Shown here in pieces: positions 1,883 to 57,856 of a stretch of DNA of 64,000 bases. Source of the stretch: Pseudomonadota bacterium (GTDB taxonomy: Bacteria > Desulfobacterota > Binatia > Binatales > Binataceae); assembly GCA_021324885.1 (NCBI GenBank), contig JAJPIF010000004.1, positions 186,001-250,000 on the forward strand, read 5' to 3'. How positions within the stretch are numbered: the stretch's first letter is position 1; the number at the start of each line of letters is the position of its first letter. A model generated the notes under the pieces. It had not been told where the DNA came from, made no database searches, and saw only the letters and a program-made list of their open reading frames with translations. Position numbers and translations under genes: made by a program.

Positions 1883-2674
1883 TCACCAGAGCTTGCGGCC
1901 CGCGTCCACCACCAGCGTCTGCGACGTCATCAGCGCGCTGTCGTCGGAGGCCAGGAAAACCGCGGCGCCGGTCATGTCCCGCGGTTCCATCGTGCAGCCC
2001 AGCAGCGCCTGCTCGCGCAGCACACCGATGAACTGCTCGGGCAGCGATTTCAGCGTCGCTTCGGACAGCACCACGCCGGGAACCAGTGCATTGACGCGAA
2101 TTTTGTATGGCCCGTAATCGATCGCCATCGCCTGCGTCAGATGGACAACCGCGGCCTTTGACAATCCGTAATAGTAAGCGCGACGGACATTGCTTTCGCT
2201 GATCGTGGTAAACTTCGCGCCGCGCGCCGCTATTCCGGGCCATGCCGCGTTCGAGGCGATATTGATGATCGAGCCGCCGCGGCGTCTGATCATGTAGGGC
2301 ACCACCGCCCAGGTCGCGGTCAGTACGCCGAAGACGTTTACATCCATCACCTTGCGCCCGTAAGAGATGGAAGCGTCGGCGAGGTCGATGTCATAGTAGA
2401 GCGCCGCGTTGTTGATCAGCGCGTCGATCCGGCCGAAGCGGCTGTTCACCTCGCCCGCAATCTGCTCCATCCGGACCTCATCGGTAACGTCGGCTTCGAT
2501 CGCAACGGCCTGGCCGCCCTTCGCTGCAATCTCCTTTGCGACGTCGCGCGCCTGCTCGATCCGCTTGTCGAGCAGCGCCACCGCCGCGCCTTCTTCAGCA
2601 AAGCGCAAGGCGTACTCCCGTCCGATACCTTGAGCGGCGCCCGTAATAACGGCAACTTTATCCTTAAGCCTCAT
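1883..2674 (-). CDS. SDR family NAD(P)-dependent oxidoreductase
   Basis: A 263-residue classical short-chain dehydrogenase. It shows the cofactor motif TGAAQGIG near residue 12, NNAA near 90, and the catalytic YGLSK (YxxxK) near 170, followed by the usual C-terminal substrate loop. An acidic D after strand 2 (LLDKR) suggests NAD preference. ATG at 2674 is preceded by AAAGGT. It is the last gene of the minus-strand operon 9794-1883, only 18 nt after an amidohydrolase, so it probably oxidises or reduces an alcohol/ketone intermediate of the same catabolic route. Substrate unknown. Confidence 0.9.
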   Translation of the reverse strand: MRLKDKVAVITGAAQGIGREYALRFAEEGAAVALLDKRIEQARDVAKEIAAKGGQAVAIEADVTDEVRMEQIAGEVNSRFGRIDALINNAALYYDIDLADASISYGRKVMDVNVFGVLTATWAVVPYMIRRRGGSIINIASNAAWPGIAARGAKFTTISESNVRRAYYYGLSKAAVVHLTQAMAIDYGPYKIRVNALVPGVVLSEATLKSLPEQFIGVLREQALLGCTMEPRDMTGAAVFLASDDSALMTSQTLVVDAGRKLW

Positions 2675-2692: not shown

Positions 2693-3853
2693 TCAGACGC
2701 CGTATACTCTTGCGGCGTTGCCGCCCATATAGTTTGCTATCACGTCTTCAGGAACGCCGGCCTCCTCAAACCGCGCGATCGCCGCAGCGCTGTCGGACGC
2801 GTCGTGATGCGGATAGCGCGAGCCCCACGCACCGATCGGCTTGTATATTTCATGTGCGGTCAGTGCCGCGCTTTCCCACGGGTTCAGCGTCACCAGGTAA
2901 TTGCGGTCGTAAAACGTCCGCTCGGTGTCCAGGTTGATGTTCTCGTACATGTAAAAGATTGCCCAGTTCGAGGTTTTCTCCAGCATCAGGCTGACCCATC
3001 CGATTCCGCCATGGGTGTAGGCAAGTTTTAGGTTGGGAAAGCGCTCCGGATGGCCGCAGTAGGTGAAAGCCGTGCCCGCGATCGCATTATCCATGGTGTA
3101 GGAAATGGATTCGGCCACGCGATGGCCGATCCTCAGATTGGCGGCAACCCGCTCGACGTAAGAGCCGGTGGAAGTCCATTCGGGATTGGCCACTCCCGGT
3201 GACGCATGGATGGATGCGGTCAGACCGGATTTTTCGATCTCAGCCCAAAGCACGTCGTAATAGGGATGGTTGAGAAAGCGGCCTTCGAAGAATACCGGGC
3301 GGATCGATACGGCTTTGAAGCCAAGTCCAGCCACCCGATGCAGTTCCTGAACGGCGAAGCCGGCGTCCTGAAGCGGGAGGATCGCGGCGGGGAACAGGCG
3401 CCGCGGAGCCTCGCTGCACAAGTCGCGGATCCAGTCGTTGTAGGCACGAGCAAGCGCCAGCGCGAGGTCGGGATTTTCGACGGTGGGGAAGTATTCGCCG
3501 AACAAAGTGGGGAAAATCAGGGCCTTGTCCACTCCCATGCGGTCCATGTCGGCAATCCGCGCGGACGCGGAATTCGCGCCGGGATTGATCGGATAAGGCC
3601 GATTGGGATCGAGCGCGCCGATTTCTTCCGGCGTCATTCCGGGGCGCCAGATGGCGGACCGGTTGATCCGCCCGCTGTGCATCAACGGCGCCTGGCGTCC
3701 GTTCAGGATAACGCCGGCGGAGTACTCATCTTCGTGATAGTAGAACGCGGAGCGTGCCGCGACGCGATAGGCGGGGTCGAGATACTTCTCCCAAATTATA
3801 TCCGGTTCGAATACATGGCTGTCGGCGTCAATTACCTGGAGTTTTTTGTGCAT
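2693..3853 (-). CDS. amidohydrolase-2 family metal-dependent hydrolase or decarboxylase
   Basis: A 386-residue TIM-barrel protein of the Amidohydro_2 (ACMSD-like) group. It starts with DADSHVFEP, the DxH metal motif at strand 1, has SIHASPG mid-barrel, THGGIGW near 280 and SRYPHHDASDS near 345, where the family carries its last metal ligand (usually GSDYPH.DS). The arginine in place of that Asp (SRYPH) is notable and might change metal binding. Members either hydrolyse C-N/C-O bonds or decarboxylate aromatic or beta-keto acids. It sits between another amidohydrolase (54 nt upstream) and an SDR gene (18 nt downstream) in the carboxylase operon. Exact reaction unknown. Confidence 0.85.
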   Translation of the reverse strand: MHKKLQVIDADSHVFEPDIIWEKYLDPAYRVAARSAFYYHEDEYSAGVILNGRQAPLMHSGRINRSAIWRPGMTPEEIGALDPNRPYPINPGANSASARIADMDRMGVDKALIFPTLFGEYFPTVENPDLALALARAYNDWIRDLCSEAPRRLFPAAILPLQDAGFAVQELHRVAGLGFKAVSIRPVFFEGRFLNHPYYDVLWAEIEKSGLTASIHASPGVANPEWTSTGSYVERVAANLRIGHRVAESISYTMDNAIAGTAFTYCGHPERFPNLKLAYTHGGIGWVSLMLEKTSNWAIFYMYENINLDTERTFYDRNYLVTLNPWESAALTAHEIYKPIGAWGSRYPHHDASDSAAAIARFEEAGVPEDVIANYMGGNAARVYGV

Positions 3854-3907: not shown

Positions 3908-5308
3908 TCAGTACCTGTTCTCCTGATTGACTTCTCTCTGCCACCAACTGTTAAATTCCGCATCCTCTTTCGGGAACCACTCCGGCCGCTGGATTGGCGG
4001 CGCCTGTTCGTTCACGAAAGTGCGCGGCTCGATCCCATAGAAGCGGCGCGCGTTGCCTCCCAGCATCCTGGCCTGCGCGCTTTCCGGAACACCGGCGCGC
4101 TCCATGTGCCGGATTGCCTCCCACACGTCTTCGGCGTCGGGATGGTACATGTCGGACGCCCACACGCCGATGTTTTCGAATTTTCTGTACGTTCGGAATA
4201 CCAGATCCTCATCGGACTCGAAGGAGATCATGCATTGCTGGTTGAAAGCTTCGCTGGGCAGCCGCTTTAGCGGCGTCCTGCGCTCATTGGCGTACAGCTT
4301 GACCAGCAAATCGCAATGCTCGAGCAGTTCCGGCAGCCATGCCGCGTTGGATTCGAAAATCGCCATTTTGAGGCGCGGATATCGATCGAGAAACCCCGAC
4401 AACAGCACCTGCGCCAGCCAGGTCATCGCCTCGAAGATGAAGCTGAAGGTCGATCCCACGATCACGCGTCCGGTGCCCACACCCGTTCGCGTCAGGATAT
4501 CACCCGGCGAGATCGGCTTTTCGTTAACTTCCATGCCGACGCCGAGCGGCGGCGTGAAAGTGTGCATCCCGAGCACCATCCCGGTTTCCTCGATCGCCCG
4601 GAACAGCGCGTCAGTGTAGTTGATACCAAATCTGCCATGGCTGGTCGCGCGCTCCTGATCGGGATCGAGGCGGTTCGGATACAGTCCGCCGGCGTCGATT
4701 GGCCGCAGCAGGACGACGCGAAATCCCAGTTTTGCAACGCGATAGATCTCCTCGACCGCCAATCTGGTGTTCTGCAGCGCGAAGATCGCCGCCGGGAAGA
4801 GCCGCTGCGGCTGCGCCTTGCACCAGTCGTAAACCCAATTGTTGTAGGCGCGCGCGAACGCCGCCGCGCCCTGCGGGTTCTCGACGAAATACAGATTGTT
4901 GATGAGCATGGTCGGAATCACCAGCACCTGATCGATTCCCATAAGGTCCAGATCGCGCACACGCACCTGGGCGTCGTAGGCGCCGCGATGGTCCAGGTAG
5001 GCGACCTGCTCGTGGTTGAGCCGCGTGCGCATCAGGCGGCGCTTGACGCGCTTGTTGACGCCGGGACCGCTGACGGTGAGCGCATTGAGATTAATGAACC
5101 TGGGTCCGCTGCTCTCGCTGTTGCCGCTCATCACCATCTGGCGTTCGTTGATGAAGCCGGTGGCGCCGCTGCACCAGTACGCCCGTTTGACCAGCTCGCG
5201 ATCCTTCGGCTCGACGTAGTTTTCCCAGATCTCGACCGGATCATTGATGTGGGCGTCGCAGTCGAAGACCGGGAAATTCTTGCGCATCCGTTGTTTGCCG
5301 TTTTCCAT
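3908..5308 (-). CDS. amidohydrolase-2 family protein, longer form
   Basis: A 466-residue relative of the preceding amidohydrolase gene. It has FDCDAHINDP (DxH metal motif) near residue 15, GMHTFTPP mid-barrel, FESNAAWLPELLEHCD near 330 and ASDMYHPDAEDV near 390, the region of the catalytic Asp. It is about 80 residues longer than its neighbour, mostly in an N-terminal insertion. It starts 16 nt after the HyuB-gamma fusion ends, strongly suggesting co-transcription. A plausible role is processing of the acid made by the carboxylase, but this is inference from position. Confidence 0.82.
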   Translation of the reverse strand: MENGKQRMRKNFPVFDCDAHINDPVEIWENYVEPKDRELVKRAYWCSGATGFINERQMVMSGNSESSGPRFINLNALTVSGPGVNKRVKRRLMRTRLNHEQVAYLDHRGAYDAQVRVRDLDLMGIDQVLVIPTMLINNLYFVENPQGAAAFARAYNNWVYDWCKAQPQRLFPAAIFALQNTRLAVEEIYRVAKLGFRVVLLRPIDAGGLYPNRLDPDQERATSHGRFGINYTDALFRAIEETGMVLGMHTFTPPLGVGMEVNEKPISPGDILTRTGVGTGRVIVGSTFSFIFEAMTWLAQVLLSGFLDRYPRLKMAIFESNAAWLPELLEHCDLLVKLYANERRTPLKRLPSEAFNQQCMISFESDEDLVFRTYRKFENIGVWASDMYHPDAEDVWEAIRHMERAGVPESAQARMLGGNARRFYGIEPRTFVNEQAPPIQRPEWFPKEDAEFNSWWQREVNQENRY

Positions 5309-5324: not shown

Positions 5325-7679
5325 TCAGCGCAGATTGAGGCGTACGTCCCAAAATGGCGGCTCATCGCCTCTGGCCAGTTCGTTTTCGAACAACACACCG
5401 CATCCGGGACAGATGTAGCTGCGGTAAACCATCTCGTCGTCGAGCTCCGCTTTGGCGTCGCCATAGAGAAAGTCGTCCAGTTCGGACAGACTGCCGTTGA
5501 TGCGCGCGGATCCCAGTTTGTAATTGCCGCCGCCTTCGCACAGATAATGCCCGCAATCGGCGCATACGATATAGGCGCGCCCGTCGGTCTCAACCACCTT
5601 CAATTCGCCGCCCATGTTGAACAGCAGTTTCTCGCCGCCGTTGGGCGCCGGGGGCTGGATCGATTGCAGCGGCGGTAGCGCACGCGCCAGCCGTTCACGC
5701 CGGATCTGCTCACGCCGCTGCGCGGTTGCGGCTGTATCCACCTGGCCATCAACGATGACGACCCCATAGATCCCCGACGCCTGCTCCAGGCGCAGTCCGT
5801 CGCCGACATCTTCCAGCACCGCCGCCGGATCGCGCTTGATTGGATCTCCATATCCGCCGGCCGATCCGATATCCATCACCCACACGTCATCGCGTAGCAG
5901 CGGCACACCGACGCTTTTGGGTGGAACTGCGTGCAGTCTCACACTCTCGCGCAGTTTTTCCACCGAAGCGGGGAGCCGCCCTTCGGCCATCGCCTGCGCG
6001 ATTCCGCAATTATGGGCCGACATGAAAAATCCGGCCTGCCCACAGTGGCCGCCCCACAAGCCGTTGGCGCCGGGCAGACTCAGCGGGATGCTGGCGGCTG
6101 ACATGACCTGGTTCTCGGTGCCGCGTCCCACCCATCCGAGCACGATGCCGCGTCCGCCGCGATACTTGCCGTGGCCGAAGCCGAGCGAATATCTCCTGAA
6201 CAGGTACAGGATGGGGCTGGCCTGCTCCCAGACTTCACAATCGCCGGCCTCGCTGCGCGGTATCGTATAGGTGCCGCCCTGGTCGATGCCATCCTTGAAC
6301 GAGAACGCGCCGCCACCGCTGGCGATCTCATCGAGCGATACGGTTGCGTACGGATGGCCCCACTGGTCGATACCGGACATTCCGGTCCATGCGCTGCTGG
6401 CCTTCACCGCCATCTGGTTGACGCGCAGTTCCTCGTCGCAGGCCAGCATTTTGGACAGCACCGTCGCGCTCATCGCGACCGACGACATGATGCCGAGCAG
6501 ATTGGACACCGCGCCGCTGCGGTCGATGCAGTTGATCGTGCCGGGGACCGGCCGGAAGCTGGCGTGCTTGAGGACGCCGCCGGTGCAATAGCGATGGTCC
6601 CACGCCAGCAGCGCGGACATCGAATTGGCGATCGCCGCGCGCCAGGCGCCGAAGCTGCAATTGGCCGAACCGAACTCGGTCTCGGTGCCTTCATTGGAAA
6701 AGACCAACTGATCGGCGGTTTTGGTCATCGTCATGGTCACGCGATGCGCCCGCCGATCGCCGCGGCTCAACGCGCCGAGATAGGTAACGTCGTGCCAGGT
6801 GCCGTCGGGGATTCGCAGCAGACGCCGCGATACCGCCGCCGAGGCGTCGTCTATTATCTTGCGCATCGCAGCTTTCACCGTCGCCGCGCCATAGCGCGCG
6901 ACCAGTTCCCGGGCGCGACTGGACGCCGCGTGGACGCCGGCGATTTGCGATCGCAGGTCGAGCGCGAGCAGGCCGGGAATCCGCGAATGGCGTCGGATCA
7001 TCTGCTCCACGTCGGTGCGCAGGCGGCCGCGTTCAACCAGCTTGATGGGCGGGATCGGCGTCGCCTCGCCGTACACATCCTTCGCCTCGACGCAGAAACT
7101 GCTCGGCTCGGTGCCGCCGATGTCGCGCACGTGAACCGAGTTGAAGACCCAGCAGAACAGCGCGCCGTCGATGAACACCGGGGCGAAAGTCTGGACATCC
7201 ATCTGATGACTGACGCCAATCAGCGGATCGTTTTGAAAAAACACGTCGCCGTCTTCGATGCCGGGATTGTGGCTGCGGTTCTCCAGTGTCCACTGCACGA
7301 CGAGATCGGCGACACCGGCGAAGTACTGGACGTAAGGCGCGAACATCACGGCTTCGCCGGTTTCGGTCTGGATTGAGGTGTTCAGGTCGTTGGCGAAGCT
7401 GGCCACCGGCGAAGCGCCGACCTTGCGGATCGTGTCGGCATGCTCCTCGTTGAGAATCCACAGCGCGTTGCGGATTACTTCAAACGCGATCGGATCGATT
7501 TCAGCCGCGGTCTCAGCGTGCAGCCGTAATTTCGGATTGATATTAAGTTGCGCGCGCGGCACATAGCTCAAATTGAAGCCGTCCCACAGCCGCGGATCGA
7601 GGACCTCGGTACGCGGCGCGGCCGGACGCTCCCCGGCTGGGGGCCGCTGGATTTCACCTGAGAGTCGTTGCTCTTCCAT
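5325..7679 (-). CDS. HyuB/acetone-carboxylase-alpha-like subunit fused to a gamma-like zinc module
   Basis: A 784-residue protein. Residues about 35-640 match the hydantoinase B / acetone carboxylase alpha family, including the NDPLIGVSHQMDV block that corresponds to NDPFAGGTHLPD in the HyuB at 56291. The last ~95 residues form a separate zinc-ribbon-like module with Cys at about 706, 709, 714, 757 and 760 (CADCGHYLC...CPGC), resembling the small gamma subunit of acetone carboxylase (AcxC). The plain HyuB at 56291 lacks this tail. Acetone and acetophenone carboxylases couple ATP cleavage to carboxylation of a ketone; the fusion plus a HyuA partner 18 nt upstream makes a ketone carboxylase likelier than a hydantoinase. 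Substrate unknown. Confidence 0.8.
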   Translation of the reverse strand: MEEQRLSGEIQRPPAGERPAAPRTEVLDPRLWDGFNLSYVPRAQLNINPKLRLHAETAAEIDPIAFEVIRNALWILNEEHADTIRKVGASPVASFANDLNTSIQTETGEAVMFAPYVQYFAGVADLVVQWTLENRSHNPGIEDGDVFFQNDPLIGVSHQMDVQTFAPVFIDGALFCWVFNSVHVRDIGGTEPSSFCVEAKDVYGEATPIPPIKLVERGRLRTDVEQMIRRHSRIPGLLALDLRSQIAGVHAASSRARELVARYGAATVKAAMRKIIDDASAAVSRRLLRIPDGTWHDVTYLGALSRGDRRAHRVTMTMTKTADQLVFSNEGTETEFGSANCSFGAWRAAIANSMSALLAWDHRYCTGGVLKHASFRPVPGTINCIDRSGAVSNLLGIMSSVAMSATVLSKMLACDEELRVNQMAVKASSAWTGMSGIDQWGHPYATVSLDEIASGGGAFSFKDGIDQGGTYTIPRSEAGDCEVWEQASPILYLFRRYSLGFGHGKYRGGRGIVLGWVGRGTENQVMSAASIPLSLPGANGLWGGHCGQAGFFMSAHNCGIAQAMAEGRLPASVEKLRESVRLHAVPPKSVGVPLLRDDVWVMDIGSAGGYGDPIKRDPAAVLEDVGDGLRLEQASGIYGVVIVDGQVDTAATAQRREQIRRERLARALPPLQSIQPPAPNGGEKLLFNMGGELKVVETDGRAYIVCADCGHYLCEGGGNYKLGSARINGSLSELDDFLYGDAKAELDDEMVYRSYICPGCGVLFENELARGDEPPFWDVRLNLR

Positions 7680-7697
7680 TGATGGACCCCGGTTTGT

Positions 7698-9794
7698 TTA
7701 GACATTAATCAAAAGGTTGCCGAAACGATCAACCTCGGCGCTCTGATGCGGACGTACCGGCACCGTGGTGTGCGGCAGCTCGATAATCGCGGGGCCGGAA
7801 ATGCGATGGCCCGCGCGGATGATGGCGCCGTCGAAAATCGGCGTGTCGGCGTAGTGCTCCATCTCCCACCAATATACCGGGCGGCGGCTCTTTATCTTGG
7901 GTCTGGTTTTGCGCCTGGGCGGCGAGCTTTGCGCAAGTTCGATCTGCGGCAGAACTCCGAGAGCCTTCAATCGCAGCCGCAGTACCTCGACACCCGCCTC
8001 GCGATAACCGGCCCCTTCGCCGTAGCGCTGCGTGTACAGGGTCTGGAAATCGTCGATCAGGCGCTCCGCGTCGGCAGCCGTCAAAGTTCCATTGGGGACC
8101 GTAATTTCCAGATGGGAGACCTGCGCGCAGTACTTAATCGCGATAGACCGCTCCAGGATGATGCTGGACGCGTCGAAACCCAGCTCCCGCATGCGATGCT
8201 CGGCCTGCCGATCCATTTCAGCATAAACGGCGTTGAGCGCGGCTACATCCAGTGGTTCGCGCAGATAAAGGTTGCGCTCGTATAGATGGACCATCCCGCC
8301 GACATAGGTGCCCAGAGCGGACCATGCCGCGGCGGCATTGCCCAGCGGGACCGCGACTTTCCTGACACCCAGCTCGCGCGCATACATCGCGGCATGAGTG
8401 GGACCGCCGCCGCCGAACGCAAAGACCACGAAGTCGCGCGGATCGTAGCCGCGAAACAGCGTCAGGCGGCGAATCTCACCGGCCATCCGCGAATCAACGA
8501 TGCGGCAGATGCCCGCCGCGGTGTTCTCCAGGCTCAGCCCCAGCGCATCCGCCAGACGCGCGATTCCGCGCCGCGCCGCCGCGACATCGAGCCGTCTCTG
8601 TCCACCCAGAAAATAGTCCGGGTTGATGATCCCCAGTACGACGTTGGCATCGGTGACGGTCGGCTCCTCTCCGCCCTTGCCGTAGCACATCGGCCCGGGT
8701 TCGGCACCGGCGCTGCGCGGTCCGACCTTCATCGTGTTGCTGGCCGGATCGATGTAGGCAATACTGCCGCCGCCCGCGCCGATCGACACGACATCGATCA
8801 TCGGCAAACGCATCTCGAAGCGGTCCAGCACAGTTTCATTGCGGGTCATCGGCACGCCCTTGTAAACGATGCCGACATCGAAGGTCGTGCCGCCCATATC
8901 GGTCGTAATGATGTTGTCGTAGCCCATCTTGGGTCCGAGCACGCTGGAGCCCTGCACGCCGCTGACCGGACCGGAATCGATTGTGTAAAGCGGCGCCGCC
9001 GCCACTTCGTCCGGCGGCACGCATCCGCCCACACATCGCGCGAACATCACTTCGGAACCGAGACCGGCCTCGCGCGCGCGTTGGTTGATTCCCTGGATGT
9101 AGCGCCCCATCAGCGGGCCGACATAGGCATTGAACAAGGTCGCGACCGTACGACCGTGCTCGCCCAGAAAGGGAGCGACTTCGCACGAGCAACTGATGAA
9201 CAGATGTGGGGCAATCGAAGCGGCCAGCCGCTTGAGTGCCCTTTCGTGATCGGGATTTTGAAACGACCACAGCAGGCAAATCGCCAGCGCTTCGATTCCT
9301 TTCGCCACCAGGCGCTCGATCGCCTCTCGCGCCTGCTCCTGGTCCAGCCGCACCACCACCTCGCCCTTGCAGTCGATGCGTTCCGTAATCTCCTCGATAA
9401 ACTCCCGCGCGACCAGCGGACGCGGTTTTTCCGATCCCGCCATGTACAGCAATTCGTCCACGCCCAGGCCCTTGGAGCGGCCGCTGCCGTTCATGATGAA
9501 AATTGATTGGCCATGACCCGCCGTCGTCAGCAACCCGAGTTTGGCGCCGCGTTTGGTGACGATTGCATTGGTTGCGGTGGTGGTCGCATTGACCAGGATT
9601 CGCGTCTGGCTCAGGAAGTTGCGCGAATCCAGCCCCAGTGCCGACGCGGCGTTTTCGAGCGCATCGAAAAACCCCTGGGCGGGATTGGACGGGGTGGTCG
9701 GCGCCTTCGCCGTCGTAAACGATCCCTTGCTGGAATCGAAAACGGCGCAATCGGTGAAGGTGCCGCCAATATCAACGCCGACGATATACTTCAT
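7698..9794 (-). CDS. HyuA/acetone-carboxylase-beta-like ATP-binding subunit
   Basis: A 698-residue ASKHA-fold protein. The phosphate-1 loop VDIGGTFTD lies at residues 6-14, the phosphate-2 loop TDMGGTTFDVG near 300, GAGGGSIA near 345 and the FGGGGP block near 470. These mark hydantoinase A / acetone carboxylase beta subunits, which phosphorylate the substrate or bicarbonate. ATG at 9794 has GAGAGG 10 nt upstream. It is directly followed by its HyuB partner (18 nt), and preceded by a small lipoprotein gene (19 nt), in a probable six-gene operon. The fused gamma module in the partner points to a carboxylase complex. Confidence 0.88.
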   Translation of the reverse strand: MKYIVGVDIGGTFTDCAVFDSSKGSFTTAKAPTTPSNPAQGFFDALENAASALGLDSRNFLSQTRILVNATTTATNAIVTKRGAKLGLLTTAGHGQSIFIMNGSGRSKGLGVDELLYMAGSEKPRPLVAREFIEEITERIDCKGEVVVRLDQEQAREAIERLVAKGIEALAICLLWSFQNPDHERALKRLAASIAPHLFISCSCEVAPFLGEHGRTVATLFNAYVGPLMGRYIQGINQRAREAGLGSEVMFARCVGGCVPPDEVAAAPLYTIDSGPVSGVQGSSVLGPKMGYDNIITTDMGGTTFDVGIVYKGVPMTRNETVLDRFEMRLPMIDVVSIGAGGGSIAYIDPASNTMKVGPRSAGAEPGPMCYGKGGEEPTVTDANVVLGIINPDYFLGGQRRLDVAAARRGIARLADALGLSLENTAAGICRIVDSRMAGEIRRLTLFRGYDPRDFVVFAFGGGGPTHAAMYARELGVRKVAVPLGNAAAAWSALGTYVGGMVHLYERNLYLREPLDVAALNAVYAEMDRQAEHRMRELGFDASSIILERSIAIKYCAQVSHLEITVPNGTLTAADAERLIDDFQTLYTQRYGEGAGYREAGVEVLRLRLKALGVLPQIELAQSSPPRRKTRPKIKSRRPVYWWEMEHYADTPIFDGAIIRAGHRISGPAIIELPHTTVPVRPHQSAEVDRFGNLLINV

Positions 9795-53322: not shown

Positions 53323-54297
53323 ATGCGCGCGCTTGTCCTCAAATCATCGAGTTCGGCAGAATCCGCGAATCGAGTTGCGTTTCGTCAGGACTATCCGATA
53401 CCGGTGCCGCCAGCGGGCGAAAGCCTGGTGCGCGTCCGGATGGCGGGAATTTGCGGTACCGACCTCGAGATGGTGCAAGGTTACATGGACTTCAGCGGGG
53501 TCCTCGGCCATGAATTCGTGGGCGAAGTCGTCCAGACCGCAAACCGGGCTTTGGCCGGCAGGCGAGTCGTGGGCGAGATCAACGCCGCTTGCGGCCGTTG
53601 CGAATGGTGTCAGGCGGAGATGGGACGCCATTGCCCGAATCGTACCGTGCTCGGAATCCTTGGGCGTGACGGCGCCTTCGCCGAATACCTTTGCCTGCCC
53701 GACGCCAACCTGATCCCGGTCAGCGACAAGTTGCCGGACGAGGCGGCTGTGTTCGCGGAGCCATTGGCGGCGGGTTTCGAGATTCTCGAACAGACCCGGA
53801 TCGCACCGGCCGATCGAATCGCGATTTTAGGCGACGGCCGTCTTGGCGCGATTATCGCCCTGGCATTGAAAGCTCGCGGTCTCAAACCCGTAATCGGGGG
53901 CCATCACGATGAAAAACTTCAGCGCCTGCATGAAATGGGAATCGCCGGACAGGATGAGAGCACGCTTGAGCCCGGATTCGATATAGTCGTCGATTGCACC
54001 GGTTCGGCGCAGGGTCTGAGCCGGGCGCTGGAACTGGTGCGGCCCCGCGGCAGGCTGGTGCTCAAGACCACGGTCGCAGGCTCCGCCGGGATCAACCTGG
54101 CTCCGGTCGTGATCAACGAAATCGAAATAATCGGTTCGCGATGCGGCCGGATGCTGCCGGCGTTGCGTGCGCTGGAAACCGGCCTGGTCGATCCGCAACC
54201 GCTGGTCTGCGCCGTCTTTCCTCTGACCGAAGCCGAAGTGGCGCTCGGACGAGCTTCGGACCGCTCGGTTTTCAAGGTCCTGCTGAAAGCGTTCTGA
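53323..54297 (+). CDS. zinc-binding MDR alcohol dehydrogenase-like protein
   Basis: A 324-residue medium-chain dehydrogenase. AGICGTDLEMVQGY carries the catalytic-zinc Cys, GVLGHEFVGEVV the His-Glu, CGRCEWCQAEMGRHC the four structural-zinc Cys, and ILGDGRLGAIIALALKARG the cofactor loop. It is somewhat shorter than typical 340-350-residue members. It lies 2 nt before the HyuA gene, so it should act on the same substrate family as that pair, for example on an alcohol or polyol precursor. ATG at 53323. Confidence 0.9.
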   Translation: MRALVLKSSSSAESANRVAFRQDYPIPVPPAGESLVRVRMAGICGTDLEMVQGYMDFSGVLGHEFVGEVVQTANRALAGRRVVGEINAACGRCEWCQAEMGRHCPNRTVLGILGRDGAFAEYLCLPDANLIPVSDKLPDEAAVFAEPLAAGFEILEQTRIAPADRIAILGDGRLGAIIALALKARGLKPVIGGHHDEKLQRLHEMGIAGQDESTLEPGFDIVVDCTGSAQGLSRALELVRPRGRLVLKTTVAGSAGINLAPVVINEIEIIGSRCGRMLPALRALETGLVDPQPLVCAVFPLTEAEVALGRASDRSVFKVLLKAF

Positions 54298-54299
54298 GG

Positions 54300-56294
54300 G
54301 TGGCCGCCTCACCACGCAGCGCGGATAACCGCCCAATCGTTATCGGGATCGATACGGGCGGCACTTTTACCGATGTCGTCGCGGTCATCAACCGCGAGTT
54401 GAAGGTCCACAAGCTGCCTTCCACCCCGCATGATCCGGCCATTGCCGTGCTGGAAGGAGTGCGTGCGCTGATCGGACCGCGAACCGCGCAAACGCTGACC
54501 TACAGTTCGACGGTCGCCACCAATGCCCTGCTGCAACGGCGTGGCGCCCGGGTCGCATTGTTCACCAATGCCGGCTTCGAGGATCTGATCGAGATCGGCC
54601 GCCAAAACCGGACCGATATTTACGCCCTTGCTCCCGCGCGTCCGCAGCCGCTGGTCGAGCGCGCGATGCGCTTTGGCGTTGCGCAGCGGACTCTGTTCGA
54701 CGGTCAAATCGCGCTGGAACTGACGCGGACCGAGCTGGGCCGCATCGCCCGACTCGCGCAACGAAGCCGCGCTCAATCCTTCGCCATCTGTCTGCTCCAT
54801 AGCTATGCCAATCCCAGCGGCGAGCAGGCCCTGGCGCAATCACTCAAAGAGCTGGGACGGCCGCTGTCGGTGTCCCATCTGATCCTGCCCGAGTACCGCG
54901 AGTTCGAACGCCTTTCGACCACCGTCGTCAACGCCTACGTGGCGCCGCTGATGGTCGAGCATCTGGGACGCCTGGAACGCGAACTGCCGGCTCACCGCCT
55001 GCGCATCATGCAGTCCGACGGTCACGCGATCGGCGTCGAACTGGCGCGCCAGGAGCCAGTCCGAACAATTCTGTCCGGGCCGGCCGCGGGCGTAATCGGG
55101 GCGGCCACCCTGGCGCGGTCCTTCGGCGTCGATCGATTCATCACCTTCGACATGGGCGGCACTTCCACCGACGTCTCGCTTTTCGACCGCCGCGCCAATA
55201 TCCGATCCCTGAGTTATCCAGCGGGATATCCGGTACGAACTCCGGTGATCGACATCCATACCGTGGGCGCCGGCGGCGGGTCCCTGGCGCGCATCGACGA
55301 AGGCGGATCGCTGAAGGTCGGGCCGGAAAGCGCCGGCGCCGATCCGGGCCCAGCCTGCTATGGGCGCGGCGGAGACCCGACGGTAACCGACGCCGACCTG
55401 GTCGCGGGGCGTTTGATGGCGGCCAATTTCCTGGGCGGCCGGATGCGGCTTTATCCGCAAAATGCCGAGCGGGCCCTGGGCCGTATCGCTCGCGCGATGA
55501 AATGCGGGCTCGACAATGCCGCCCGCGGAGTCATTCGAGTCGTCAACGCCAACATGGCGCGTGCAGTGCGTCTAATCACGGTCGAGCGCGGCTTCGATCC
55601 GCGCGACTTCGCACTGCTTGCATTCGGCGGCGCCGGTCCGATGCATGCCTGCGAACTGGCCGCCGAATTGGGGATCCGCCGCGTGATTCTGCCGTCGAAC
55701 CCGGGACTGGCGTGCGCGTATGGCGCGCTGAACGCCGCGCTGGGGCGCGAATACTCACTGACGGTCAGGCGCACGGCACCCTCTTATGACGAACTGAAAA
55801 AGCTGATGCGCCCGCTTATGACGCGCGCGCGTCGCGAAATGGCCGCGCAAGGCGTTCGATCATCCCAGGTTGAAAACCAACCATGGTTGGACGTGCGCTA
55901 TCGCGGCCAGTCCTTCGAATTGAAGGTGGCGCTGACGCCCCACTTTCTTGAGGACTTTCACCGCGCGCACGAGCGTACCTTCGGCTATGCCGCCCGCGAT
56001 GCGGTCGTCGAGGTGGTGAACCTGCGACTTGAAGCGCGCGCCGGCGAATACGAACATCGCCCGGTCCGGATCAGGCGCGCGGCGCGTCGACCTGAACCGA
56101 TTGGCCGAATCAGCGCAATCGCACAAGGACGCCGCCGCACCATCCCCGTTTTCGAGCGCGATCACCTGGGTGCCGCGACTCGGTTGCAGGGCCCGATGCT
56201 ATTGGTCGAACTCAGCGCCACTGCTTACGTTGCGCCAGGCTTTACCATGCGCGTGGACGATTTCGGCAACATTCATCTGGAGGCGGGGGCGTGA
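54300..56294 (+). CDS. hydantoinase/oxoprolinase subunit A (HyuA)
   Basis: A 664-residue ASKHA-fold ATPase: IGIDTGGTFTDVVAV at the start, TFDMGGTSTDVSLF near 285, HTVGAGGGSLARIDEGGSLKVGPESAGADPGPACYG near 325 and LLAFGGAGPMHACELA near 445. It pairs with the HyuB gene that starts 4 nt inside its end. Members hydrolyse hydantoins or 5-oxoproline with ATP, or carboxylate ketones. GTG 54300 gives a standard N-terminus; the frame is open further upstream within the dehydrogenase gene. Confidence 0.9.
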   Translation: MAASPRSADNRPIVIGIDTGGTFTDVVAVINRELKVHKLPSTPHDPAIAVLEGVRALIGPRTAQTLTYSSTVATNALLQRRGARVALFTNAGFEDLIEIGRQNRTDIYALAPARPQPLVERAMRFGVAQRTLFDGQIALELTRTELGRIARLAQRSRAQSFAICLLHSYANPSGEQALAQSLKELGRPLSVSHLILPEYREFERLSTTVVNAYVAPLMVEHLGRLERELPAHRLRIMQSDGHAIGVELARQEPVRTILSGPAAGVIGAATLARSFGVDRFITFDMGGTSTDVSLFDRRANIRSLSYPAGYPVRTPVIDIHTVGAGGGSLARIDEGGSLKVGPESAGADPGPACYGRGGDPTVTDADLVAGRLMAANFLGGRMRLYPQNAERALGRIARAMKCGLDNAARGVIRVVNANMARAVRLITVERGFDPRDFALLAFGGAGPMHACELAAELGIRRVILPSNPGLACAYGALNAALGREYSLTVRRTAPSYDELKKLMRPLMTRARREMAAQGVRSSQVENQPWLDVRYRGQSFELKVALTPHFLEDFHRAHERTFGYAARDAVVEVVNLRLEARAGEYEHRPVRIRRAARRPEPIGRISAIAQGRRRTIPVFERDHLGAATRLQGPMLLVELSATAYVAPGFTMRVDDFGNIHLEAGA

Positions 56295-57856
56295 AACTCG
56301 ATCCGGTAACGCTTGAAGTGATGAACAGCCGCCTGGCCGCGATTGCCGAGGAGATGGGCGTGGTGCTGGGCCAAACCGGATATTCGCCCAATATCAAGGA
56401 GCGGCGTGATTTCTCCTGCGCCCTGTTCGACGGCAGCGGCGAGATGGTGGCCCAGGCGGCCCATCTGCCAGTACATCTGGGGTCCACGCCGCTTTCCGTG
56501 CGCGCCGCGATCCAACGCCTTGAGCTAGGTCCTGGCGACGTGGCCGCCGTCAACGATCCGTTCGCCGGAGGCACTCATCTACCCGACCTGACGCTGGTCG
56601 AGCCGGTGTTTATCCGTGGCCGGCGCGCCCCGTTCGCCTATGTCGCCAACCGGGCGCATCACGCGGATATCGGCGGGATGGCGCCGGGGTCGATGGCGCT
56701 GTCGCGCGAAATCTACCAGGAAGGATTCCGGCTGCCGCCAGTCAAGCTAATCGCCGCCGGTCAACCGGTCCGCGACATCTTCGAATTGTTTTTCGCCAAT
56801 ACCCGAGTGCGCCAGGAGCGCGAGGGCGATTTGCGCGCCCAAATCGGGGCCCTCACGGTCGGTCGCCGGCGAGTAGTCGATCTAGTTCGATCGCAGGGCG
56901 CCTCGCTGGTCGGCACCGCGATGGAAGAACTGAAAAGCTATTCGGGCCGTTTGATGAAAGCGGCGCTCAGCAAGCTCAAGGACGGCACCTACGCCGCCGA
57001 GGATTTTCTCGACGACGATGGCTTCGGTTGCGGTCCGATTCGACTTTGCGTCGCGATCCAGATGAAGCGAGGCCGCGCCCGTGTCGATTTTACCGGCTCG
57101 GCGCCACAGGTCAGCGGCCCCGTCAACGCCAACTATGCTATTACGCTGTCGGCCGTGTTCTACGTGATGAAGTGCCTGGGGGCGGAAGCGGTGCCGCCCA
57201 ACGAGGGGTTGATGCGCGCGGTAAAAGTGATTGCGCCCGCCGGGACTATAGTCAACGCCAATGAGCCGGCCGCGGTCGCCGGCGGCAACGTGGAAACGTC
57301 GCAACGGCTGGTGGACGTGCTGTTCAGGGCGCTGGCGCGGGCGGCGCCCGATCGAATTCCGGCCGCCAGCTCGGGCTCGATGTCGAATCTGACAATCGGC
57401 GGCTATGATACCTCACGGGGACGCGGTTTTACCTATTACGAAACCATCGCCGGAGGAGCCGGAGCGGCGCCGGGCTTCGATGGTGCTTCGGGAATCCATA
57501 CTCATATGACTAATACCCTGAACACGCCGATCGAGGCGCTCGAGGCTTACTACCCGATGCGCGTGACGCAGTATGGGATCCGCGCAGGTTCCGGAGGAAA
57601 GGGCAAATTCACTGGCGGGGACGGATTGATCCGCGAACTGGAATGCCTGGTCGAATCCGATGTGAGCGTGCTCAGCGAACGCCGAGTCCTGGCGCCTTAC
57701 GGGCTCTATGGCGGGGGTGAAGGAAAGCGCGGCGCTAACTATCTAATCCGCAGCGGGCGCCGCCACACGCTACCGGGCAAAGCCAGCGTCCGGCTTGCTC
57801 CCGGCGACCATATCCGCATCGAAACACCCGGGGGCGGCGGCTGGGGCCGCCGCTGA
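56291..57856 (+). CDS. hydantoinase/oxoprolinase subunit B (HyuB)
   Basis: A 521-residue HyuB. MKLDPVTLEVMNSRLAAIAEEM, SPNIKERRDFSCALFDGSGEMVAQAAHLPVHLG, NDPFAGGTHLPDLTLVEPVF, NRAHHADIGGMAPGSM and the C-terminal IRIETPGGGGWG are standard. Unlike the copy at 5325-7679 there is no zinc module at the C-terminus. GTG start overlaps HyuA by 4 nt. With HyuA and an MDR dehydrogenase it forms a compact operon; a cyclic amide (hydantoin, oxoproline) or ketone substrate is equally possible. Confidence 0.92.
   Translation: MKLDPVTLEVMNSRLAAIAEEMGVVLGQTGYSPNIKERRDFSCALFDGSGEMVAQAAHLPVHLGSTPLSVRAAIQRLELGPGDVAAVNDPFAGGTHLPDLTLVEPVFIRGRRAPFAYVANRAHHADIGGMAPGSMALSREIYQEGFRLPPVKLIAAGQPVRDIFELFFANTRVRQEREGDLRAQIGALTVGRRRVVDLVRSQGASLVGTAMEELKSYSGRLMKAALSKLKDGTYAAEDFLDDDGFGCGPIRLCVAIQMKRGRARVDFTGSAPQVSGPVNANYAITLSAVFYVMKCLGAEAVPPNEGLMRAVKVIAPAGTIVNANEPAAVAGGNVETSQRLVDVLFRALARAAPDRIPAASSGSMSNLTIGGYDTSRGRGFTYYETIAGGAGAAPGFDGASGIHTHMTNTLNTPIEALEAYYPMRVTQYGIRAGSGGKGKFTGGDGLIRELECLVESDVSVLSERRVLAPYGLYGGGEGKRGANYLIRSGRRHTLPGKASVRLAPGDHIRIETPGGGGWGRR

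Follow-up and report, generated by a model that had tools for sequence, protein, structure and literature searches.

We find that a HyuB-type protein encoded in a 64,000-nt stretch of DNA from a soil bacterium (here called the window) ends in a domain of the acetone carboxylase gamma type, and this assignment of the tail, fused to the metal subunit, is well supported by sequence comparison. Together with the HyuA-type protein encoded next to it, the HyuB-gamma fusion is likely to carboxylate a ketone-like substrate in an ATP-dependent reaction that needs no biotin. What leads us to a carboxylase is the presence of gamma, the place of the protein in our trees and the occurrence of acyl-CoA ligase genes near related loci; according to published work, it is gamma that sets carboxylases apart from hydantoinases (PMC5214803, PMC4959651). 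A preliminary description of this DNA had already proposed a two-protein ketone carboxylase. Its account of the parts stands, with gamma inside the HyuB-type subunit and a single HyuA, while carboxylation is kept only as the best inference.

The genes lie on the minus strand (Table 1), in the order HyuA, HyuB-gamma, Amd1, Amd2 and SDR1, with successive gaps of 18, 16, 54 and 18 nt. The order HyuA-HyuB-Amd1-Amd2 is common to both same-genus genomes, in one of which (L039) an SDR gene also comes after Amd2; the layout therefore behaves as an operon. The preliminary description had reported a HyuB with a Cys-rich C-terminal module and a HyuA partner 18 nt upstream, and we recover both: the two reading frames are spaced as stated there, and the tail of the 784-aa frame (residues 683-782) holds two CxxC pairs. 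It was also right that the module is absent from the second HyuB of the window (56291-57856, 521 aa), where PF02538 is present and PF08882 absent. That gamma-less HyuA/HyuB pair (53994-56294 and 56291-57856) adjoins a zinc alcohol dehydrogenase gene, the whole spanning 53323-57856.

Table 1. Features of the HyuA/HyuB-gamma operon, in positions of the window.
Feature	Position	Strand	Basis
HyuA-type ATP-binding subunit, 698 aa	7698..9794	-	Pfam Hydant_A_N, Hydantoinase_A, Hydant_A_C
HyuB-gamma fusion protein, 784 aa	5325..7679	-	ORF, Pfam, AlphaFold2
HyuB body, residues 62-613	5841..7496	-	PF02538, E 4e-85; fold match
Predicted catalytic metal ligands D98, H158, D161, H183	7131..7388	-	Alignment to 5m45_A
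Fused gamma domain, residues 683-782, with putative zinc Cys C706/C709/C757/C760	5334..5633	-	PF08882, PDB, Foldseek
Amd1, PF04909, ARO-like, operon gene 3	3908..5308	-	Pfam, PDB match, ligands, synteny
Amd2, PF04909, ARO-partner-like, operon gene 4	2693..3853	-	Pfam, ligands, synteny
SDR1, short-chain dehydrogenase, operon gene 5	1883..2674	-	ORF, Pfam

That the tail belongs to the acetone carboxylase gamma family, as had been supposed, is borne out by Pfam, since residues 683-782 match PF08882 (Acetone_carb_G) with an E-value of 8.7e-10 and 39.3 bits, the cut-off being 21. When the tail alone was compared with all PDB chains, acetone carboxylase gamma (5svb_C, 2.3e-6; 5m45_C, 5.5e-6) was found and nothing besides it at E <= 1e-3. 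The zinc-type pairs are C706/C709 and C757/C760, and all four residues are invariant in an alignment of 55 fused relatives. Of 88 fused proteins left after removal of redundancy, 87 have the four Cys in an uninterrupted fusion, a recurrence that rules out a frameshift, an assembly artefact or a chance fusion. The exception has CxC for the first CxxC, which is the spacing found in the gamma subunit of X. autotrophicus (Cys74, Cys76, Cys124 and Cys127; PMC5543143). The AlphaFold2 model of HyuB-gamma rose from pLDDT 67 with 11 sequences to pLDDT 88.6 (pTM 0.91) with the 55 fused relatives, most tail blocks lying at 74-96. The fold match of the tail comes from a Foldseek run on the earlier, poorer model (probability 1.00 to 5m45_C), the later comparison on the better model barely testing the tail. 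A profile built from fused tails also recovers true stand-alone gammas, including archaeal ones encoded beside hyuB.

The fused arrangement is the usual form of a large multi-phylum family and is not peculiar to the source genome, so that the preliminary description understated its spread. A fusion unique to that genome is ruled out by the two copies present there and the many in other phyla. The second copy (L038, 9876-12242, on contig 3) has no adjoining HyuA and is kept in the genus (L060, L061); two further HyuA genes of the source genome (on C21 and C9) have no HyuB match on the same contigs. The gamma family was found in 20 of 57 close genomes, in several of them as fusions of 700-820 aa, and a scan of species genomes gave 79 loci, nearly all fused, from Actinomycetota, Pseudomonadota, Acidobacteriota, Bacillota and others. 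The fusion is also present in some haloarchaea. Elsewhere gamma is a gene of its own: in Labrys (L080, L081) and a relative (L055) a separate gene of about 95 aa comes directly after hyuB, and on several haloarchaeal plasmids hyuA, hyuB and gamma are three close or overlapping genes, in one case with an AMP-binding ligase directly after them. The RefSeq name of the third haloarchaeal gene is "acetone carboxylase subunit gamma". As the fusion unites genes that are adjacent elsewhere, it bears the classic sign that both parts work together. The open-licence papers that we searched do not describe the fused form, and a description may exist elsewhere.

Variants of these arrangements were also seen. 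L048 (5804-14995) and L052 (3522-15699) each encode one HyuA and then three tandem HyuB-gamma paralogues, with a second HyuA in the opposite orientation. PF08882 lies at the C-terminus of a 435-aa protein in L165 (9167-10474), and in L057 (9655-10464) a 269-aa frame with a gamma-like N-terminus directly follows hyuB. The HyuB of a Rhodococcus plasmid (L175, 3459-5636) ends in a CxxC...CxxC tail too divergent for the gamma profile to pick up, and CoA transferase and enoyl-CoA hydratase genes come after it.

A tree of 84 HyuB bodies, from which the gamma columns were left out, separates 20 gamma-less proteins from 64 others with a branch support of 99 (all support values are SH-aLRT from quick searches). 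The larger side holds the fused, split, Acx-type and Apc-type proteins and L130, the Acx- and Apc-type rows being named by a strong PF08882 match or an NCBIfam ApcD score and not by assay. The same gamma/gamma-less split, again with support 99, is seen in a tree of 66 HyuA partners, which includes Acx partners and no Apc. HyuB-gamma of the window has a deeply nested place within the main fused clade, outside that of Acx. As to a possible origin of the separate Acx gamma by fission, fused lineages make up the main clade and appear again close to the base, but one branch with support 94 can still divide fused proteins from Acx and Apc. The HyuB of L130 (7938-9902, 654 aa) falls within the fused clade, and no gamma was detected in its neighbourhood; this is possibly a natural loss of gamma, and could then serve as a test of the purpose of gamma.

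Three known systems and a haloarchaeal one invite comparison. Acetone carboxylase (AcxABC of X. autotrophicus and A. aromaticum; 5M45, 5SVB, 5SVC) likewise combines a single ATP subunit of the HyuA type with a single metal subunit of the HyuB type and a Cys4 zinc gamma, its metal ligands are at equivalent positions, and it falls on the same side of the tree. However, its gamma is a separate 168-aa subunit encoded by the third gene of acxABC, whereas that of the window is a fused tail of about 100 residues; the HyuB proteins are about 24% identical, Glu89 of Acx is Asp98 in the window, and Acx-specific HyuA residues are mostly absent from the fused partners. We exclude a strict Acx system because gamma is not a separate gene and the protein lies outside the Acx clade. 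Acetophenone carboxylase (ApcABCDE; 5L9W) gives the best structural match to the HyuB body (Z 33.8 to 5l9w_A), and shares with it a short gamma and a metal-site Asp in place of Glu, and with many of the fused relatives a CoA-ligase gene in the operon. Apc has five subunits, however, including a second HyuA-like alpha' and epsilon, and in the operon of the window no second HyuA-like gene was found. The single HyuA, together with NCBIfam equivalog scores far below the cut-off of 1500 bits (ApcC 422, ApcD 180), excludes Apc. The hydantoinases, 5-oxoprolinases and caprolactamases (HyuAB/CapAB; 6YRA, 7HK5) have the two-gene hyuA-hyuB layout, the ATP motifs and the metal ligands, but no gamma domain, and the sampled gamma-less HyuAB are set apart in both trees as described above. 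An ordinary member of this group is excluded because gamma is present and the proteins of the window lie on the opposite side of both trees. In haloarchaea such as Haloterrigena alkaliphila and Haladaptatus pallidirubidus, the HyuB is 39-40% identical over residues 31-644 and the gene order is the same, but the gamma of about 95 aa is unfused and directly downstream.

By homology, the HyuB body would be the metal-site and C-C-bond-forming subunit ("alpha" of Acx, beta of Apc). Its predicted ligands D98, H158, D161 and H183, which do not vary among 55 fused proteins, correspond in the alignment to E89, H150, D153 and H175 of X. autotrophicus acetone carboxylase alpha in 5m45_A, the metal ligands described for that enzyme; those of Apc beta are Asp65, His123, Asp126 and His148 (PMC5543143, PMC5214803). 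The HyuA, counterpart of "beta" in Acx and of alpha in Apc, has the ASKHA motifs DIGGT at residue 8, DMGGT at 299 and GAEPGP at 363, as well as ERID at 138, the contact motif described for the alpha subunit touching HyuB, and the nearest solved chain is acetophenone carboxylase 5l9w_B (E 1.7e-118). With ASKHA motifs, HyuB fold and metal ligands all present, the pair belongs to the wider hydantoinase/ketone carboxylase family. The metal ligands and ATP motifs also occur in hydrolases and have no discriminating power, only 3 HyuB columns separate the carboxylase from the hydrolase groups, and the body fold does not discriminate either, since it resembles carboxylases and caprolactamase alike (Z 31.1 to 5svc_A, acetone carboxylase alpha, and 30.3 to caprolactamase 6yra_B).

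A rival reading is an ATP-dependent hydrolase of cyclic amides or lactams (hydantoinase/oxoprolinase type), which would fix no CO2 and in which the gamma-like zinc domain would be purely structural or regulatory. By NCBIfam score the HyuA is nearer to caprolactamase CapA (532 bits, also below its cut-off) than to ApcC, and at the columns where the HyuA of Acx differs from that of hydantoinases, the residues of the fused partners are mostly hydantoinase-like. Such residue signatures speak somewhat against a carboxylase, but do not tell it apart from a hydrolase. A hydrolase would also agree with the plasmid records, which where annotated name the large fused-type proteins hydantoinase B, and with the place of L130 within the fused clade. 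Against it stands the coincidence of gamma with the branch of Acx and Apc in the HyuB tree and of Acx in the HyuA tree, as well as the gene neighbourhoods: an acyl-CoA ligase gene lies within 6 kb of 49 of the 95 fused loci and of none of 24 controls, selected for their lack of gamma and drawn mostly from the window's own relatives. The ligase-linked loci are not independent, as most of them represent one conserved actinobacterial operon (HyuA-HyuBgamma-ligase-FAD monooxygenase-TetR). Separate cases are found in Acidobacteriota (L071), Bacillota (L084), a Rhodococcus plasmid (L171) and haloarchaea (L168 and L174), and the operon of the window itself has no acyl-CoA ligase gene. A parallel to the ligase-bearing loci is the apc operon, which includes a benzoylacetate-CoA ligase gene (PMC5214803). 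Weighing these points, we consider a hydrolase unlikely, and favor the ketone carboxylase.

A carboxylase of another substrate class, namely one that acts via a phosphorylated enol on a phenol or other enol instead of a simple ketone, seems to us more improbable still. It is suggested by the FAD monooxygenase that comes after the ligase in the actinobacterial operon and resembles salicylyl-CoA 5-hydroxylase, and by the acidobacterial locus L071 (3454-14070), where PEP-synthase-like mobile-domain and C-terminal-domain proteins lie around HyuA-HyuB-gamma. We take these domain proteins to recall phenylphosphate synthase. However, the neighbours in question belong to other clades and not to the operon of the window, and a gene of the 2,4'-dihydroxyacetophenone dioxygenase family at a Mycobacterium branderi plasmid locus fits aryl ketones at least equally well. 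At that locus (L170, 3578-11424) HyuB-gamma and HyuA lie among P450 genes, and the dioxygenase family gene nearby is a hint of aryl ketones. At L071, two proteins of about 390 aa encoded before HyuA have no Pfam match, and for the one that was searched there was no PDB match; neighbours of similar length are found at L077 (11227-16886). The neighbours at L071 and L077 may form a phosphotransfer system like that of phenylphosphate synthase. Finally, the idea that the tail is an unrelated zinc ribbon matching the gamma model by chance is hardly credible and we reject it: zinc ribbons converge easily and Zn_Ribbon_TF matches at the same place (E 0.037, below the cut-off), but the PF08882 score is almost twice its cut-off over 100 residues, the only significant PDB match and the Foldseek match are to acetone carboxylase gamma, and the fused-tail profile finds the stand-alone archaeal gammas.

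For the ketone carboxylase that we prefer, the fusion, the homology, the conserved sites, the tree position and the gene context are observed, whereas we infer carboxylation itself, its mechanism, the presence of zinc, the nature of the substrate and the sequence of pathway steps. With ATP, HyuA would convert a carbonyl substrate that can enolise to its enol phosphate and, as in acetone carboxylase, would use that one ATP site also to activate bicarbonate to carboxyphosphate. A beta-keto acid would then form from the two intermediates at the HyuB metal site (D98/H158/D161/H183). The gamma domain would hold one structural zinc and pack on HyuB, and the fusion could fix the gamma:HyuB stoichiometry at 1:1 and spare an assembly step. 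In the related operons, the acyl-CoA ligase may then activate the acid.

In the source genome, the ketone could be supplied by hydroxylation by Amd1/Amd2 and oxidation by SDR1. Amd1 and Amd2 resemble a pair of amidohydrolase-related dinuclear oxygenases (ARO) and are probably monooxygenase parts of the AibH1H2/PtmU3 type rather than amidohydrolases. The best PDB match of Amd1 is the diiron hydroxylase PtmU3 (6omp_A, E 3.7e-20), and it holds all six dinuclear ligands (D18, H20, H249, E319, D386 and H389), which in AibH2 are D25, H27, H211, E265, D337 and H340 (PMC7782822). Amd2 has His and Arg in place of the Glu and Asp ligands. The pair recalls AibH1H2, where one subunit is catalytic. The operon contains no Rieske ferredoxin gene; all Rieske genes of the genome lie outside it, one example being a 105-aa frame at C13:309991.

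Biochemical knowledge of ketone carboxylases that depend on ATP but not on biotin comes from very few enzymes, and the part that gamma plays in them has been called unclear. The covalent gamma is a natural construct with which to probe that role, as the tail could be deleted or mutated without losing stoichiometry. Our trees suggest an annotation rule, namely that HyuB with a gamma, fused or adjacent, marks the branch of the known carboxylases, so that many "hydantoinase B" genes may be misfiled CO2-fixing enzymes. Taken as a whole, we put forward only tentatively the possibility that a large and unnamed branch of biotin-independent carboxylases, with gamma and the metal subunit in one polypeptide, is filed as "hydantoinase B" in Bacteria and haloarchaea, and that the source organism uses its member as the last step of an O2-dependent module, in which the Amd pair would hydroxylate an unactivated carbon, the SDR would form the ketone and HyuA/HyuB-gamma would convert it to the beta-keto acid.
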